Translations under genes and position numbers: made by a program | Assembly (NCBI GenBank): GCA_012798135.1 | Contig: JAAZNU010000021.1 | Location: 124,001-188,000, forward strand | Direction of reading: 5' to 3' | Source: Veillonellaceae bacterium | GTDB lineage: Bacteria; Bacillota_C; Negativicutes; UBA1444 | DNA: 64,000 nt | Notes under the pieces: generated by a model | What the model was told of the DNA's origin: nothing | Databases searched by the model: none | What the model saw: only the letters and a program-made list of their open reading frames with translations | Shown: one piece after another, positions 30,717 to 40,342 of the stretch | How positions within the stretch are numbered: position 1 is the first letter of the stretch | Layout of the letters: each line of letters opens with the position of its first letter

Positions 30717-30722
30717 CGGAAC

Positions 30723-30896
30723 AGGCTGTTGATAAAGGCCCATCTGCGGCGCACTCGCAAGGAGTAGGCCGCATTTCTAAGCGCTAAAGCGCAAGAACTG
30801 CGCTCTCACGACTGCGTTTGCTTGCTTGCGTACAGGCAGTACGCGGCACGGCGCAAGCCTCGCCGTTTCTTGCATCTGGACCTTTCTGAACAGCCT
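30723..30896. repeat. Repeat family A, copy A1 (MITE-like, 174 bp)
   Basis: Begins AGGCTGTTGATAAAGGCCC and ends GGACCTTTCTGAACAGCCT, imperfect terminal inverted repeats of about 25 bp. Inside is a GCGTAC-AGGCA-GTACGC hairpin. It is highly similar to copy A2 at 34952-35120. There is no coding capacity. It lies directly after the phosphate acyltransferase gene. Confidence 0.85.
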
Positions 30897-30913
30897 TGGT
30901 AATGAGACGGGAC

Positions 30914-34212: not shown

Positions 34213-34938
34213 ATGGAGCAGACACCGGAAAAAGAAACTCGGGATGCGCGGGAGATGACGCTGATCGGCCATCTCAGCGAATTGCGCCGGCGGATCATTG
34301 TGGCGGTCGTGGCCATTGTGATCGGTACCTTGGTTGCATATTTTTATGTCGATGAACTGATGCGGTTTGTAACAGCGCCGGCTGGCAAGCTGTACTTCAT
34401 GAGTCCGGCCGAAGGATTTTTCGCCTACCTGAAGTTGGCGGTATTCGCCGGCTTCATGCTGGCGTTGCCGGTGGTGCTGTGGGAAATCTGGGCGTTTGTC
34501 GCGCCGGCATTGACTACGCATGAGAAGCAATGGGCGGTCATTATGGTTCCTGGCGCGGCGCTGCTGTTTTTTATCGGTGAGGCGTTTGCCTACTTGCTGG
34601 TTTGGCCGGCTGCCGTCAAGTTTTTCCTTGGTTTCGGCAGCGAGTCGCTGCAGCCGATGCTGTCGCTCGGCCAGTATTTGTCGTTTTTATTGTCCTTTAT
34701 TTTGCCGTTCGGCGTTATTTTTAATTTGCCGTTGCTTCTGCTCGTATTGGCGAAAATAGGTATCATCAGTTCCGGCTTTTTGGCGAAGCAGCGTCGAATC
34801 ATGATTCTGTTGGCGTTCATCATCGGCGGGATCATCACGCCAACCCCGGATATCTTTACCCAGACGATGATGGCGATTCCGATCATTCTGCTGTACGAGG
34901 CCAGCATCTGGGCTGTGAAAATATTGTTGCGCAAATGA
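34213..34938 (+). CDS. tatC: Twin-arginine translocase subunit TatC
   Basis: 241 aa with six predicted membrane helices. Family markers are HLSELRRRIIVAVVAI at the N terminus, SPAEGFFAYLKLAVFAGFMLALPVVLWEIWAFVAPALTTHEK, and GGIITPTPDIFTQTMMAIPIILLYEASIW. It is the receptor for twin-arginine signal peptides. It follows tatA in one operon. No Tat substrate is evident among the immediate neighbours. Confidence 0.95.
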   Translation: MEQTPEKETRDAREMTLIGHLSELRRRIIVAVVAIVIGTLVAYFYVDELMRFVTAPAGKLYFMSPAEGFFAYLKLAVFAGFMLALPVVLWEIWAFVAPALTTHEKQWAVIMVPGAALLFFIGEAFAYLLVWPAAVKFFLGFGSESLQPMLSLGQYLSFLLSFILPFGVIFNLPLLLLVLAKIGIISSGFLAKQRRIMILLAFIIGGIITPTPDIFTQTMMAIPIILLYEASIWAVKILLRK

Positions 34939-34951
34939 GCGCCGATGATGC

Positions 34952-35120
34952 AGGCTGTTGATAAAGGCCCATCTGCTGCATTTTAGAGCGGGCTGCATTT
35001 CTAAGCGCTAAAGCGCAAGAACTGCGCTCTCACGACTACGTTTGCTTGCTTGCGTACAAAGAGTACGCGGCGCAGCGCAAGCCACGTTGTTTCTTGCATC
35101 TGGACCTTTCTGAACAGCCT
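34952..35120. repeat. Repeat family A, copy A2 (MITE-like, 169 bp)
   Basis: Same ends as A1 (AGGCTGTTGATAAAGGCCC and GGACCTTTCTGAACAGCCT), with a nearly identical core (TTTCTAAGCGCTAAAGCGC, TTTGCTTGCTTGCGTAC). The internal hairpin is GCGTAC-AAAGA-GTACGC: the loop differs from A1 while the stem is kept. It lies 13 bases after tatC. Confidence 0.85.
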
Positions 35121-35197
35121 GAAAACGTAGATGTGGATTGGATTTGACGGACTGTATGGGAAGTATGGCCTTGAATCCAACGAGATTGCTTTTGAGC

Positions 35198-35407
35198 GGC
35201 TGCATGGGAAGCCGTTCGATTGCAGAGATTCTCGCCGGAATTCGTAACGTCTCGCGGCTTGGTTTGTCGAACGCACCCAAAGGCTTCTTCCGTCGCCTGG
35301 GTGCTAAAATCAACTTCCTGTTGATTTTTCCGACAAAGCCTGCGCCGCTGCGACGACGAATTCATCGCCTCCAATCTAAAGCAATCTCAGCGGCTTTCCA
35401 TGCAGCC
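35198..35407 (+). repeat. Structured repeat family B, copy B1
   Basis: About 210 bp folding back on itself. The outer stem is 35198-35214 (GGCTGCATGGGAAGCCG) with 35391-35407 (16 of 17 Watson-Crick plus one G-T). A second pairing joins GAATTCGT near 35238 and ACGAATTC near 35355. Inside are GCACCCA/TGGGTGC and AAAATCAAC-TTCCT-GTTGATTTT. The core is nearly identical to B2 while the outer stem is unrelated in sequence. No coding potential. Confidence 0.8.
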
Positions 35408-35491
35408 TGGGTTTCGCGCCTGTCTTAATATTGAGTTCGCTTTTCTGATACGGTCACATCTCCAATCCATGCACATCTCCGATCCGTCCGC

Positions 35492-35520
35492 TTGACAAAA
35501 CAGCCGCAGATGGATATATT
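35492..35520 (+). promoter_or_regulatory. Sigma-A promoter of the valS leader
   Basis: TTGACA at 35492-35497 and TATATT at 35515-35520 with an ideal 17-base spacer, just upstream of the T-box leader. Confidence 0.85.
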
Positions 35521-35532
35521 GGGAATACAACT

Positions 35533-35785
35533 TCATGTGTACAGGCGAAGAAGGGAAGAGTAACGCAAGGCGGCCAGACAGAGAAGGAACCCGCAGGCTG
35601 GAAGGTTCCGTGGCTCATCTTCGCGCGAAGGTCATCCCGGAGCTGTCCGGCTGAACTGCCAGTAAGCCGGGCCGGTTTGTCCCGTTACGACAGTCAAGTG
35701 CCTGCCGGCGGCAGGAATTTCGGGTGGTACCGCGGAAGCATGTCCTTTCGTCCCATAGATACGGGGATGGAGGGGCTTTTTCATT
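35533..35785 (+). promoter_or_regulatory. T-box riboswitch controlling valS, specifier GTC
   Basis: A tRNA-sensing leader. The stem I elements CAGAGAAGGAACC and GGTTCC are present. The specifier region GCGAAGGTCATC places the valine codon GTC at 35631-35633. The antiterminator T-box GGGTGGTACCGCGG lies at 35722-35735 and pairs with the NCCA end of uncharged tRNA. A competing terminator (GTCCC...GGGGATGG, then CTTTTT) ends near 35785. Uncharged tRNA-Val should allow read-through into valS, which starts about 40 bases later. Confidence 0.92.
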
Positions 35786-35821
35786 TATTTACAAGAGTCG
35801 GAAGTCGGGGAGGAAATGACA

Positions 35822-38473
35822 GTGGCAAAAGAAAATATTTCAACAGTGTATGATCCGGCGGCGGTGGAAACCAAGTGGTATCAGCAGTGGGAAGCGGACG
35901 GGGTGTTCCATGCGGAGCCCAGGAGCGACGGCGAACATTACAGCATCGTCATTCCCCCGCCGAACGTCACCGGCCAGCTGCATATGGGCCATGCCCTGGA
36001 CAATACTTTGCAGGATATCCTGATCCGCTGGCGGCGGATGCAGGGCTACGATACGTTATGGATGCCCGGCTGCGACCATGCCGGCATCGCCACCCAGATC
36101 AAGGTGGAGGAAGTGCTGGCCAAGGAAGGAATTTCGCGCTACGACCTTGGTCGCGAGAAATTCATCGAACGGGTCTGGGAATGGAAACAGCAGTATGGTA
36201 ACCGGATCACCAACCAGCTGAAGCGCCTGGGCGCCTCCTGCGACTGGGAGCGGGAACGGTTCACGATGGATGAGGGCTGTTCGAAAGCGGTTCGCGAAGT
36301 GTTCGTCACTTTATATGAAAAGGGCCTGATCTATCAGGGCGACCGGATCACCAACTGGTGCCCCCGCTGCAACACCGCGCTGTCGGACATCGAGGTCGAA
36401 CACGAGGATACGGCGGGCAAGCTGTACCATGTGCGTTATCCGATGCAGGACAATCCGAACGAATACGTGACGGTGGCGACGACCCGCCCGGAAACGATCC
36501 TCGGCGATACCGGGGTGGCGGTGAATCCGGCCGACGAACGTTATACCAACGTGGTGGGCAAAAATCTGGTGCTGCCGCTGGTGGGACGGGTGTTGCCGAT
36601 TATCGCCGACGAGTATGTGGATCCGGCATTCGGCACCGGCGCGGTGAAAGTGACGCCGGCCCATGACCCGAACGACTTCGAGATGGGGCAGCGGCACAAT
36701 CTGCCGACGCTCCGGGTAATCGGCAACGACGGGGCGATGACGGCGGATGCCGGCGAAGCTTATGCCGGGCTCGACCGCTACGAGTGCCGCAAAAAACTGG
36801 TGGCGGATCTGGATGCCGCCGGTTATCTGGTGAAGATCGACGACCATTCCCATGCGGTCGGCCATTGCCAACGCTGCAACACCGTGGTGGAGCCGCTGGT
36901 GTCCAAGCAGTGGTTCGTGCGGATGCAGCCGCTGGCCGAGCCGGCGATGGAAGTTGTGCGGGCCGGCCGGACCGAGTTCGTGCCGGAGCGGTTTACGAAG
37001 ATTTACATGAACTGGCTGGAAAACATCCGGGATTGGTGCATTTCCCGTCAGATCTGGTGGGGTCACCGCATTCCCGCCTGGTATTGCACCGGCTGCGGCC
37101 AGACGATCGTGTCGCGGCAGGACGTTACGGCCTGCCCGCACTGCGGCGGAGCCGTGGAGCAGGACCCCGATGTGCTGGATACTTGGTTCAGTTCGGCGTT
37201 GTGGCCCTTTTCGACGATGGGCTGGCCGGAACAGACCAAGGAACTGGCCCGCTACTATCCGACCAGTGTGCTGGTGACCGGTTACGACATCATTTTCTTC
37301 TGGGTGGCCCGTATGATGTTCATGGGCATGGAGTTCCAGCACGAAGTGCCGTTCCGTCATGTGTTTATCCACGGACTGGTCCGGGACTCCCAGGGCCGCA
37401 AGATGTCCAAGTCGCTCGGCAACGGCATCGATCCGTTGGAAGTCATCGAGAAGTACGGCGCGGATACGTTGCGTTTTACCTTGGTGACCGGCAACACCCC
37501 CGGCAACGACATGCGGTTCTACTGGGAACGGGTGGAGTCGAGCCGCAATTTTGCCAACAAGATCTGGAACGCATCCCGGTTCGTGCTGATGAATCTGGAA
37601 GATTACGAGCCGGCAACGGCTTGCGGCGAACTGGCCCTGACCGACCGCTGGATACTGTCGCGCTACGCCCAGACGGTGGCCGGCGTGACGGCGAACATGG
37701 AGAAATTCGAGCTCGGCGAAGCCGCCCGGATGTTGTACGATTTCATCTGGGGCGAGTTCTGCGACTGGTACATCGAGCTGGTCAAGCCCCGTTTGTACAA
37801 CAAGGAAGGCGCGACCGGCCGGCGGACGGCGCAGTATGTGCTGGCCTTTGTGCTGGAGCGGATGATGCGGCTGCTGCACCCGTTCATGCCGTTCATCAGC
37901 GAAGAGATCCGCGAACATCTGCCGCATGAAGCGGGCAGCATCGTACGCGCGGCCTGGCCGAAAGCGGAGCCGGCCCGGATCGACGAGGCGGCGGAAGCCC
38001 AGATGACCGCCGTGATGGAAACGATCAAGGCGGTGCGCAACATGCGGGCGGAGATGAACGTGCCGCTCGGACGAAAGGGCGAAGTGATCCTGCAGCCGGC
38101 CACAGCGGAACTGGCAGCGGTGCTGACGGAAAATCTGCCGTTCATCAAAACCATGGCGACGGCGGAGCCGGTTCAGATCATCGCGGCGGGCGACGCCAAA
38201 CCGGAGAACGCGGTGTCGCGCGTAATCAGCGGGATCGAAGTGTATCTGCCGCTGAAGGGTCTGATCGATGTCGAAAAAGAGACCGCCCGGATGAACAAGG
38301 AACTGCAGGGGTTGGAGAGCGAACTGACCCGCATTGATGGCAAACTGTCCAACGAAGGGTTTCTGGCCAAGGCGCCGGCGGCGGTATTGGAGCAGCAGAA
38401 GGCGCGGCGGGCGGAAGTGACGGAGAAGATGGCGGCGATTCGCGGGCAGATTGAGTACTTCGCAAACCTCTAA
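35822..38473 (+). CDS. valS: Valine--tRNA ligase
   Basis: 883 aa from GTG at 35822, 7 bases after GGGGAGGA; ATG at 35816 is in frame but too close to that site. Class I synthetase with HIGH motif His54-Met-Gly-His in [13 protein letters not shown], an editing domain ([19 protein letters not shown]), KMSKS motif starting at Lys527 ([14 protein letters not shown]), a zinc-ribbon-like pair CTGCGQ/CPHCGG, an anticodon-binding domain and a C-terminal coiled coil (about 810-880) that grips tRNA. A T-box leader controls it. Confidence 0.97.
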
Positions 38474-38478
38474 TTTTC

Positions 38479-38503
38479 AGGCTGTCCATAAAGGCTCATC
38501 TGC
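38479..38503. repeat. Repeat family A, partial left end (A4)
   Basis: AGGCTGTCCATAAAGGCTC then ATCTGC matches the first 25 bases of A1 and A2 with a few changes. It begins 5 bases after valS and runs into element B2. Confidence 0.6.
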
Positions 38504-38510
38504 AATGCAA

Positions 38511-38722
38511 CCGTCTGTCCTGAATCCTTTCGATTGTCGTGATTCTCGCCGGAATTCGTAACGTCTCGCGGTTTGGTTTGGCGAACGCACCCAAAGGCTT
38601 CTTCCGTCGCCTGGGTGCTAAAATCAACATCCTGTTGATTTTTCCGACAAAGCCTGCACCGCTGCGACGACGAATTCAACGGCTCCCATCCAACGCAATC
38701 TCAATGGATTCAGGACAGATGG
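38511..38722 (+). repeat. Structured repeat family B, copy B2
   Basis: The core is almost identical to B1 (CCGGAATTCGTAACGTCTCG, GCACCCA/TGGGTGC, AAAATCAAC-ATCCT-GTTGATTTT). The outer stem is a different sequence: 38511-38527 (CCGTCTGTCCTGAATCC) pairs with 38706-38722 over 17 bases with one G-T. Same orientation as B1. It lies between valS and folC. Confidence 0.8.
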
Positions 38723-38773
38723 CCGCCATTACGTCCAAATCGTTCGGTCGTTGCTAAAGACCTACCTGCGATG

Positions 38774-38992
38774 CCATGATTTTATGGGAAAAGGCTAAGG
38801 TTGCGTTCGATTTGAACCGTGTAATTCGCCGACGAAGCGGCGGCGGAATAACGGCAAAATCAACATGGATGTTGATTTTAGGACGTATGGCGCAGGATGA
38901 AGCCATTACGTCCGGCCGTGGTCCGGCGTCGCAAGTCGATTGCGAATTCCGGTGAAAATCGCAGCAACCGGGCTTTTCCCAAAAAATCATGG
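38774..38992 (-). repeat. Structured repeat family B, copy B3 (inverted orientation)
   Basis: The outer stem is CCATGATTTTATGGGAAAAG at 38774 with its near-perfect complement ending at 38992. Read on the minus strand it shows the family order: CCGGAATTCG, a hairpin GGACGTA/TACGTCC in the place of GCACCCA/TGGGTGC, then TAAAATCAAC-ATCCAT-GTTGATTTT, then a CG-rich GAATT return arm. It is more diverged from B1 and B2 than they are from each other. The folC ribosome site lies 20 bases after it. Confidence 0.72.
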
Positions 38993-39028
38993 AGTAAGAT
39001 ATAATTCGCACCGAAGGAGAGACTGCAG

Positions 39029-40342
39029 ATGACGTATGAACAAGCGTTGGCCTATTTCGAGTCACTCGGTAAATTTGGCATCCAGCTTGGACTGGCCCGA
39101 ATTGAGGCGCTGCTGGAACGGCTCGGCCATCCGGAACGCCGCTTCCGCTCGGTGCACGTGACCGGCACTAACGGCAAGGGCAGCACGACGGCCATGATCG
39201 CCGCCGTTCTGAACGAAGCCGGCATCCGTACCGGCATGTATACCTCGCCGCACCTGATCGACTACCCGGAACGGTTGCAACTTTGCGGCGCGAATATTTC
39301 CCGGCCGGCTTTCGCCGAGGTGATCGAACAGACCAAGGCAATGGCCGACGCGATGATCGCCGATGGGCTGGAAAGCCCCACCGAGTTCGAGGTGCTGACA
39401 GCGGCGGCGTTTCTGTGGTTCGCCCGGGAACGGGCGGAGATCGTGGTGGTGGAAGTGGGCCTCGGCGGCCTGCTCGACTCCACGAACGTCATTTTGCCGG
39501 AGCTGGCGGTGATCACCAATGTGACGCTGGAGCATACTGACCGCTGCGGCGACACTGTGGAAGAAATTGCCCACCATAAGGCAGGGATCATCAAACCCGG
39601 CGTTCCTGTGGTGACCGGGGCTGCCGGTGCGGCGCTGGCGGTGATCGAAACGGCAGCCAGGCAGCACGGATCGGTTTGCGAAGTGCTGGGCCGGGAGTTC
39701 ACGGTGACCGGCAGCCAAATTGAGCAGGCACGGCAAGTTTTTGAACTGCGGGTCGGCCAGACGCCGCCGGAGTTTTATTCCATCGGTCTGTTGGGCCGCC
39801 ACCAGACCGAAAATGCGGCGCTGGCGGTCCGGGCCTGTCAGTTGTTGGCGCAAGGCGACGAACGTCTGACGCCGGCGGTGATTCGGGACGGTTTGGCGAA
39901 AGCCGTCTGGCCGGGGCGGTTCGAGATTTTTCCCGGGACGCCGCTGCTGATTCTGGACGGAGCGCACAATCCGGACGGAATCCGTACTTTGCGACAAACG
40001 CTCGATGATGTGTTCCCCGGTCGGGCGATCATGTTTTTGTTCGGGGTACTGGCCGACAAGAATCATGCCGAGATGGCCCGGACCCTGTTCCGCAGCTGTG
40101 ACCGGGCCGTGGTGGTCCGGCCGCATTCCGACCGGGCTGCCGCTGCCGCGGATATTGCCCGGGAAATAGCCGGCTTTGTGGCGGCGGTCAAGACCGGCGA
40201 TACGATCGGGGAAGGGCTGGCGCTGGCGAAGGAGTGGGCCGGTCCGGACGGGATCGTCTGCGCGGCCGGGTCCCTGTATATGATCGGCGAGGTCCGGCGC
40301 ATTGTGGTCGGCGAAATGTCCGCCAATACCGCGCGGGGATGA
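39029..40342 (+). CDS. folC: Bifunctional folylpolyglutamate/dihydrofolate synthase
   Basis: 437 aa Mur-ligase-like ATPase. P-loop TGTNGKGSTTAM (about residues 45-56), TSPHLIDYPERLQLCG, VVEVGLGGLLDSTNVI, LEHTDRCGDTVEEIAHHKAGIIKPG with the carbamylated-Lys region, and ILDGAHNPDGIRTL in the C-terminal domain. It adds glutamate to dihydropteroate and folates in the cytoplasm. The start ATG lies after AAGGAGAG. It follows valS as in many Firmicutes, but here the two are separated by about 550 bases filled with structured repeats. Confidence 0.95.
   Translation: MTYEQALAYFESLGKFGIQLGLARIEALLERLGHPERRFRSVHVTGTNGKGSTTAMIAAVLNEAGIRTGMYTSPHLIDYPERLQLCGANISRPAFAEVIEQTKAMADAMIADGLESPTEFEVLTAAAFLWFARERAEIVVVEVGLGGLLDSTNVILPELAVITNVTLEHTDRCGDTVEEIAHHKAGIIKPGVPVVTGAAGAALAVIETAARQHGSVCEVLGREFTVTGSQIEQARQVFELRVGQTPPEFYSIGLLGRHQTENAALAVRACQLLAQGDERLTPAVIRDGLAKAVWPGRFEIFPGTPLLILDGAHNPDGIRTLRQTLDDVFPGRAIMFLFGVLADKNHAEMARTLFRSCDRAVVVRPHSDRAAAAADIAREIAGFVAAVKTGDTIGEGLALAKEWAGPDGIVCAAGSLYMIGEVRRIVVGEMSANTARG

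Follow-up and report, generated by a model that had tools for sequence, protein, structure and literature searches.

Three long hairpins in the window (the whole 64,000-nucleotide stretch of DNA that was analysed) probably belong to a family of mobile, non-coding DNA palindromes specific to their lineage, similar in kind to REPIN and ERIC repeats, whose complementarity is kept at the level of folded DNA and not in one RNA strand. The three elements, B1, B2 and B3, are imperfect hairpins of approximately 210-220 nt that share a common core and carry self-complementary outer arms unrelated from one element to the next. Their features are located as follows.

35198..35407, + strand: B1, whole element (core model match 35227-35377; outer arms 35198-35214 and 35391-35407)
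35273..35304, + strand: B1 hairpin 1 (stem GCACCCA/TGGGTGC, differing among copies; loop with a conserved TTCCG)
35306..35328, + strand: B1 hairpin 2 (AAAATCAAC/GTTGATTTT), the conserved apex hairpin
38511..38722, + strand: B2, whole element (core 38541-38691), absent from the matching UBA1444 site
38723..38773, no strand: spacer separating B2 from B3, which point in opposite directions; its end is a diverged second copy of the flank at 38478-38505
38774..38992, - strand: B3, whole element, in reverse orientation (core 38808-38960)

The outer arms are 94% complementary over 17 nt in B1 (35198-35214/35391-35407), 90% over 20 nt in B2 (38511-38530/38703-38722) and 95% over 20 nt in B3 (38774-38793/38973-38992). 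The motif AAAATCAAC-N(3-8)-GTTGATTTT occurs three times in the window and not once in 100 shuffles, and the folding z-scores of B1, B2 and B3 against their own shuffles are -8.2, -8.8 and -10.2, respectively. The first-pass annotation had described three hairpin elements with these positions and sequences, and our sequence, arm and fold checks agree. It had presented them as three copies of a shared core, which is correct; however, B3 is reversed (CCGGAATTCG lies on its - strand) and B1 and B2 are much closer, being 91% identical over 189 nt, so that the three elements are not equally distant. B1 and B2 are 95% identical in the core and 30% identical in the distal arms (the average copy pair shows 52-53%), and their differences, as read from the sequence, increase toward the element ends, a pattern that would fit conversion of the centre by a neighbouring copy.

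Read from the outside inward, an element starts with an outer arm that varies, followed by an internal loop and then by an inner stem around CGATTGC/GCAATC; next come another loop, GATT/AATC, a GCCGGAATTCG stem and a two-hairpin apex. The stem of hairpin 1 varies strongly among copies (3.1 Watson-Crick types per pair) and is 95% paired, with a conserved ATCC or TTCC in its loop, and hairpin 2 varies little (1.6 Watson-Crick types per pair). Conservation is highest at the apex, and the ends are the least conserved part of the element.

B1 has tatC (34213-34938) on one side and the T-box leader of valS (35539-35758, from Rfam; valS itself occupies 35816-38473) on the other, and B2 and B3 both lie in the interval between valS and folC (39029-40342), these gene names being our reading of ORF translations. 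No terminator-like site falls inside an element, the region 34900-39100 containing three where 4.0 are expected. A promoter-like pair, TTCCCA-18-TATAAT at 38976-39005, stands ahead of folC and overlaps the right arm of B3, with the scan returning sites at chance level (2 versus 1.8 expected).

A loose genome-wide pattern scan returned 91 stretches, mostly chance AT hairpins, and the true members among them were L018 and L038, contigs of the Negativicutes MAG UBA1444, and L037, from the Sporomusaceae MAG SM1-B11.1. The BLAST match of L018 and L038 extends well past the hairpin, and L037 was recognised by reading plus further comparison. The first-pass annotation had proposed a covariance-style search of relatives; a model of the core (151 positions, built from 19 copies, with compensatory changes in 19 of 34 predicted pairs) matches 14 places in the UBA1444 genome (G001, two of them partial), 13 in the SM1-B11.1 genome (G002) and three above noise in the window, the two genome counts being at least 14 and at least 13, as scoring covered 150 of 1522 and 150 of 2060 candidates from the first look. 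Run over 0.7 Mb of SM1-B11.1, twelve UBA1444 loci and the window, the model gave 28 matches, one more in this part of SM1-B11.1 than the genome-wide search. Family- and order-level sweeps returned only these two genomes. At class level, where distant relatives could escape, a model sweep (10 candidates scored per genome) hit 2 of 300 genomes and a DNA sweep (at most two candidates scored per genome) hit 6 of 380, namely the same two genomes and four stretches of 26-37 bp.

Plasmid and phage collections held no match to B2 and B3, and viral contigs yielded two pattern matches, neither of which was recovered by BLAST of the elements. In keeping with the earlier statement that no named family matches, Rfam at gathering score identified only the valS T-box and tRNAs across the whole window, and B1 searched at permissive settings gave two snoRNA matches, both sub-threshold. 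In the literature searched, which took in few subscription journals, we found no description of such a repeat in Negativicutes or of the same pattern.

Comparison of the copies qualifies the view that each core carries outer stems of its own. The arms of B1, B2 and B3 are indeed mutually unrelated and each pairs with its own partner, but arms are not always private across the family: five SM1-B11.1 copies at different sites have GGAACCGCTGAATAA or a near-identical arm, and a sixth has a variant (a set chosen by hand). Arms are common within subfamilies only. Oppositely oriented copy pairs are present in the window, L145 and L135. In two SM1-B11.1 copies, L147:7648-7879 and L139 (the same copy as L112), another repeat has inserted in or beside hairpin 1. 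The copy at L147:7648, with its extra insert, was left out of the fold-mismatch count and the 26-copy alignment, the partial or weak copies L137, L138, L139 and L140 were left out of later comparisons, and L124 was added from the arm comparison onward.

Covariation is commonly regarded as the best evidence of functional RNA structure, and in this family it is strong. We aligned 26 copies with MAFFT and took 76 stem pairs from folds computed with G-U disallowed. Watson-Crick combinations filled 1585 of 1967 cells, compared with 1151 (sd 14) in 500 shuffles and 1103 (sd 26) in 60 tree simulations, and 58 of the 76 stem pairs showed two or more Watson-Crick types. As the 76 pairs derive from the same sequences, more weight falls on the freer test of all column pairs, in which seven pairs reached E<0.05 against 60 simulations replaying substitutions on a FastTree tree; all seven were stem pairs. 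The covariation test proposed in the first-pass annotation, run here with our own script in the manner of R-scape and not with R-scape itself, thus finds significant pairs in a wider alignment, and the compensatory change that had been reported is real and exceeds a tree-based null.

What had been drawn from that change is less secure. In DNA hairpins, compensatory change is not a safe sign of selection on structure, as template switching can rewrite several stem pairs per event according to PMC8794818, which gives neighbouring compensations, stem extension and inverted loops as its marks; PMC8604942 gives arm homogenisation and spacer inversion. We suggest that template switching at the replication fork may occasionally rewrite one arm from the other. 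Among the closest copies (four copy pairs at identity of at least 0.85), 21 double changes stand against 22 half-broken pairs, and in a wider set the double changes comprise 178 transitions and 172 transversions, so that about half cannot have passed via G-U. Double changes cluster in neighbouring pairs at identity 0.85 (8 versus 4.8; 8 of 500 shuffles reach 8) and at identity 0.70 (39 copy pairs; 77 versus 61.7; 1 of 500 shuffles) and not significantly at 0.78 (8 versus 5.7; 60 of 500 shuffles), in a test where copy pairs are non-independent and uneven rates along the helix would also cluster changes. At the UBA1444 site of B3, the left flank and outer arm are collinear with B3 and the interior then runs inverted (alignment score 99.5 inverted, 56 collinear); the right side is occupied by another copy, leaving a single visible junction for the inversion. 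These features resemble the template-switch hairpins of the two papers, which describe neighbouring compensatory changes, arm homogenisation and an inverted loop or spacer, but those hairpins lie in RNA genes and yeast coding DNA, whereas the present family is a mobile bacterial repeat.

Template switching on its own should erase internal loops, yet these persist: opposing columns pair in 16/78, 6 to 15/51, 15/52 and 4/51 cells in the four outer loops and in 25/75 and 30/77 cells in the two nearer the apex, counts that come from columns picked as unpaired. Selection is therefore needed too. Template switching, judged as a separate part of the explanation, is a serious candidate that we hold slightly less likely than not. 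The conserved apex may be kept because something recognises the folded DNA, and pairing could then be maintained by template switching combined with selection on that fold. By analogy, the recognising factor might be a protein; Y1 transposases recognise the hairpins of IS200/IS605 elements. We tentatively put forward a more specific form of this idea, without holding it to be likely: the family would be shape-read mobile DNA, in which an enzyme reads the folded apex and end sequence is irrelevant, and template switching plus selection on folded single-stranded DNA would allow private, well-paired arms and strong covariation with no functional RNA.

A rival reading is a structured RNA family, either a small RNA or an mRNA element, selected as RNA. 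It would account for the strong covariation and stable folds, and transcripts could run through copies that lie between tandem genes (L142 and L037 sit between a stop codon and the start region of the next gene). An RNA of the element strand under selection should, however, show more GT than AC mismatches. Across the 1967 alignment cells we counted 53 GT, 77 AC and 252 other mismatches; in the outer arms of 26 copies, 14 GT, 13 AC and 73 others; and among one-by-one mismatches in the folds of 26 copies, 14 GT, 24 AC and 29 others. Hairpin 1 (7 pairs in each of 26 copies) has no GT at all, with 4 AC and 5 other mismatches, and 10 copies between tandem genes, turned to the gene direction under a rough ORF rule, give 6 GT and 7 AC. 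Relative to its share of mismatches, GT shows no enrichment (p 0.15). For comparison, 14 tRNAs of the window and SM1-B11.1 have GT at 28 of their 311 stem pairs, the GT share alone being used since ARAGORN shows no AC. That GT does not exceed AC or other mismatches argues against selection on element-strand RNA (a structured RNA family was one of the two readings first offered), as does the opposed orientation of B2 and B3 within one gene interval. The excess of AC over GT (77 versus 53, p 0.043) would suit an RNA from the other strand, which may be under weak selection. Taken as a whole, the RNA reading seems to us unlikely. By a rough ORF rule that drops ORFs overlapping the element and picks some false ones, 15 copies are flanked on each side by a neighbour of 150 aa or longer; 7 of these lie between convergent, 6 between tandem and 2 between divergent genes, and no 3'-end enrichment is claimed.

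Presence and absence of copies suggest that the family is mobile. The 14 UBA1444 and 13 SM1-B11.1 loci have no clear flanking protein in common (a single 26% match), the valS-folC junction of SM1-B11.1 is empty, with a gap of ~35 bp and no element, and in UBA1444 the B1 and B3 sites are occupied while B2 is missing from its site. The stretch 35100-35253, which takes in the B1 left arm and the 100 nt upstream, is 94% identical to UBA1444, compared with 84% for the coding neighbours. The other suggestion of the first-pass annotation, a fold-dependent mobile element, fits better than RNA, and these insertion differences favour its mobility, but we found no enzyme for it.

Terminal inverted arms, multiple copies, insertion differences and arms common to a subfamily are also what an ordinary MITE of a cut-and-paste IS with decayed terminal repeats would show, the case that the first-pass annotation had named as counting against its own reading. 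Against this, target duplications of at least 4 bp are absent from all 27 copies, where mismatched flanks would predict 1.24, TA ends are rare, and the conserved part is the apex and not the ends; terminal inverted repeats common to the whole family were not found. One of the 27 copies has a 3-bp duplication, lengths of 2-3 bp being too short to judge. We consider an ordinary MITE improbable. Insertion into pre-existing hairpins, with the outer arms being target DNA, is very improbable: B1 and B2 do combine 95% identical cores with distal arms that, at 30%, fall below the 52-53% average, but conversion of the centre between neighbours, with differences piling up at the ends, explains that contrast, the unoccupied UBA1444 site lacks B2's arms, and five SM1-B11.1 copies at different sites have the same arms.

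Among the Y1 transposases and integron integrases searched in UBA1444 and SM1-B11.1, we found no mobilising enzyme. The five Y1 transposase matches comprise three in UBA1444 and two adjacent pieces in SM1-B11.1; within the loci read, only one has a copy nearby, and that copy is truncated; a Y1 transposase is not favoured as the driver. The gene concerned (L137:110-799) encodes an IS200-type Y1 transposase of 151 aa and lies ~140 nt from the truncated copy, in which hairpin 2 reads AAAACCGGC/GCCGGTTTT, a paired change in an otherwise conserved stem. Integron attC sites, like the present elements, are folded single-stranded DNA with little sequence conservation. We recognised no attC core motif by eye, and neither genome has an integron integrase above the curated cut-off, an absence that is soft as both are MAGs.

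The kind of element described here is already known: PMC2267715 lists 92 stem-loop repeat families, and according to PMC3116915 the hairpins of REPINs commonly carry compensatory changes. As described in PMC3116915 and PMC3733652, REPIN/REP sequences share with the present family mobile palindromic repeats, inverted pairs, a hairpin formed as a folded single strand and compensatory hairpin changes. They differ in that a REPIN is conserved at its two 16-bp ends and varies between them, whereas the B1-B3 family has a conserved middle and variable ends; it also has no common end tag of the GTAG/CGTC type, and a linked RAYT did not turn up in the loci read. ERIC, Correia/NEMIS, RUP and other bacterial MITE-like repeats are, according to PMC2229807 and PMC2267715, likewise lineage-restricted, non-coding single long stem-loops of ~100-200 bp. 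Their terminal repeats are common to the whole family, usually with TA ends, and they make target duplications, whereas the B1-B3 family has no such terminal repeats, few TA ends and no target duplication of 4 bp or more; Rfam, plasmid and phage searches gave no sign of a sequence relationship. What is new is the family itself, its reversed conservation, with the apex kept and the ends free, and the absent G-U preference.

The family thus adds a palindromic repeat conserved at its apex instead of its ends, and its strong, tree-aware covariation with no RNA-type G-U preference makes it a test case for DNA-level sources of covariation. We suggest that GT be compared with AC on each strand of a covarying repeat before it is classed as an RNA.

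In contrast to the B1-B3 family, a second palindromic repeat in the window, with conserved ends CAGGCTGTTNATAAAGGNCCA, looks like an ordinary MITE. It occupies 30722-30897 and 34951-35121, with a half copy at 38478-38505 (6 end matches versus 0 expected), and recurs close to copies of the B1-B3 family in L137 and, in a short version of 44 nt, in L018.
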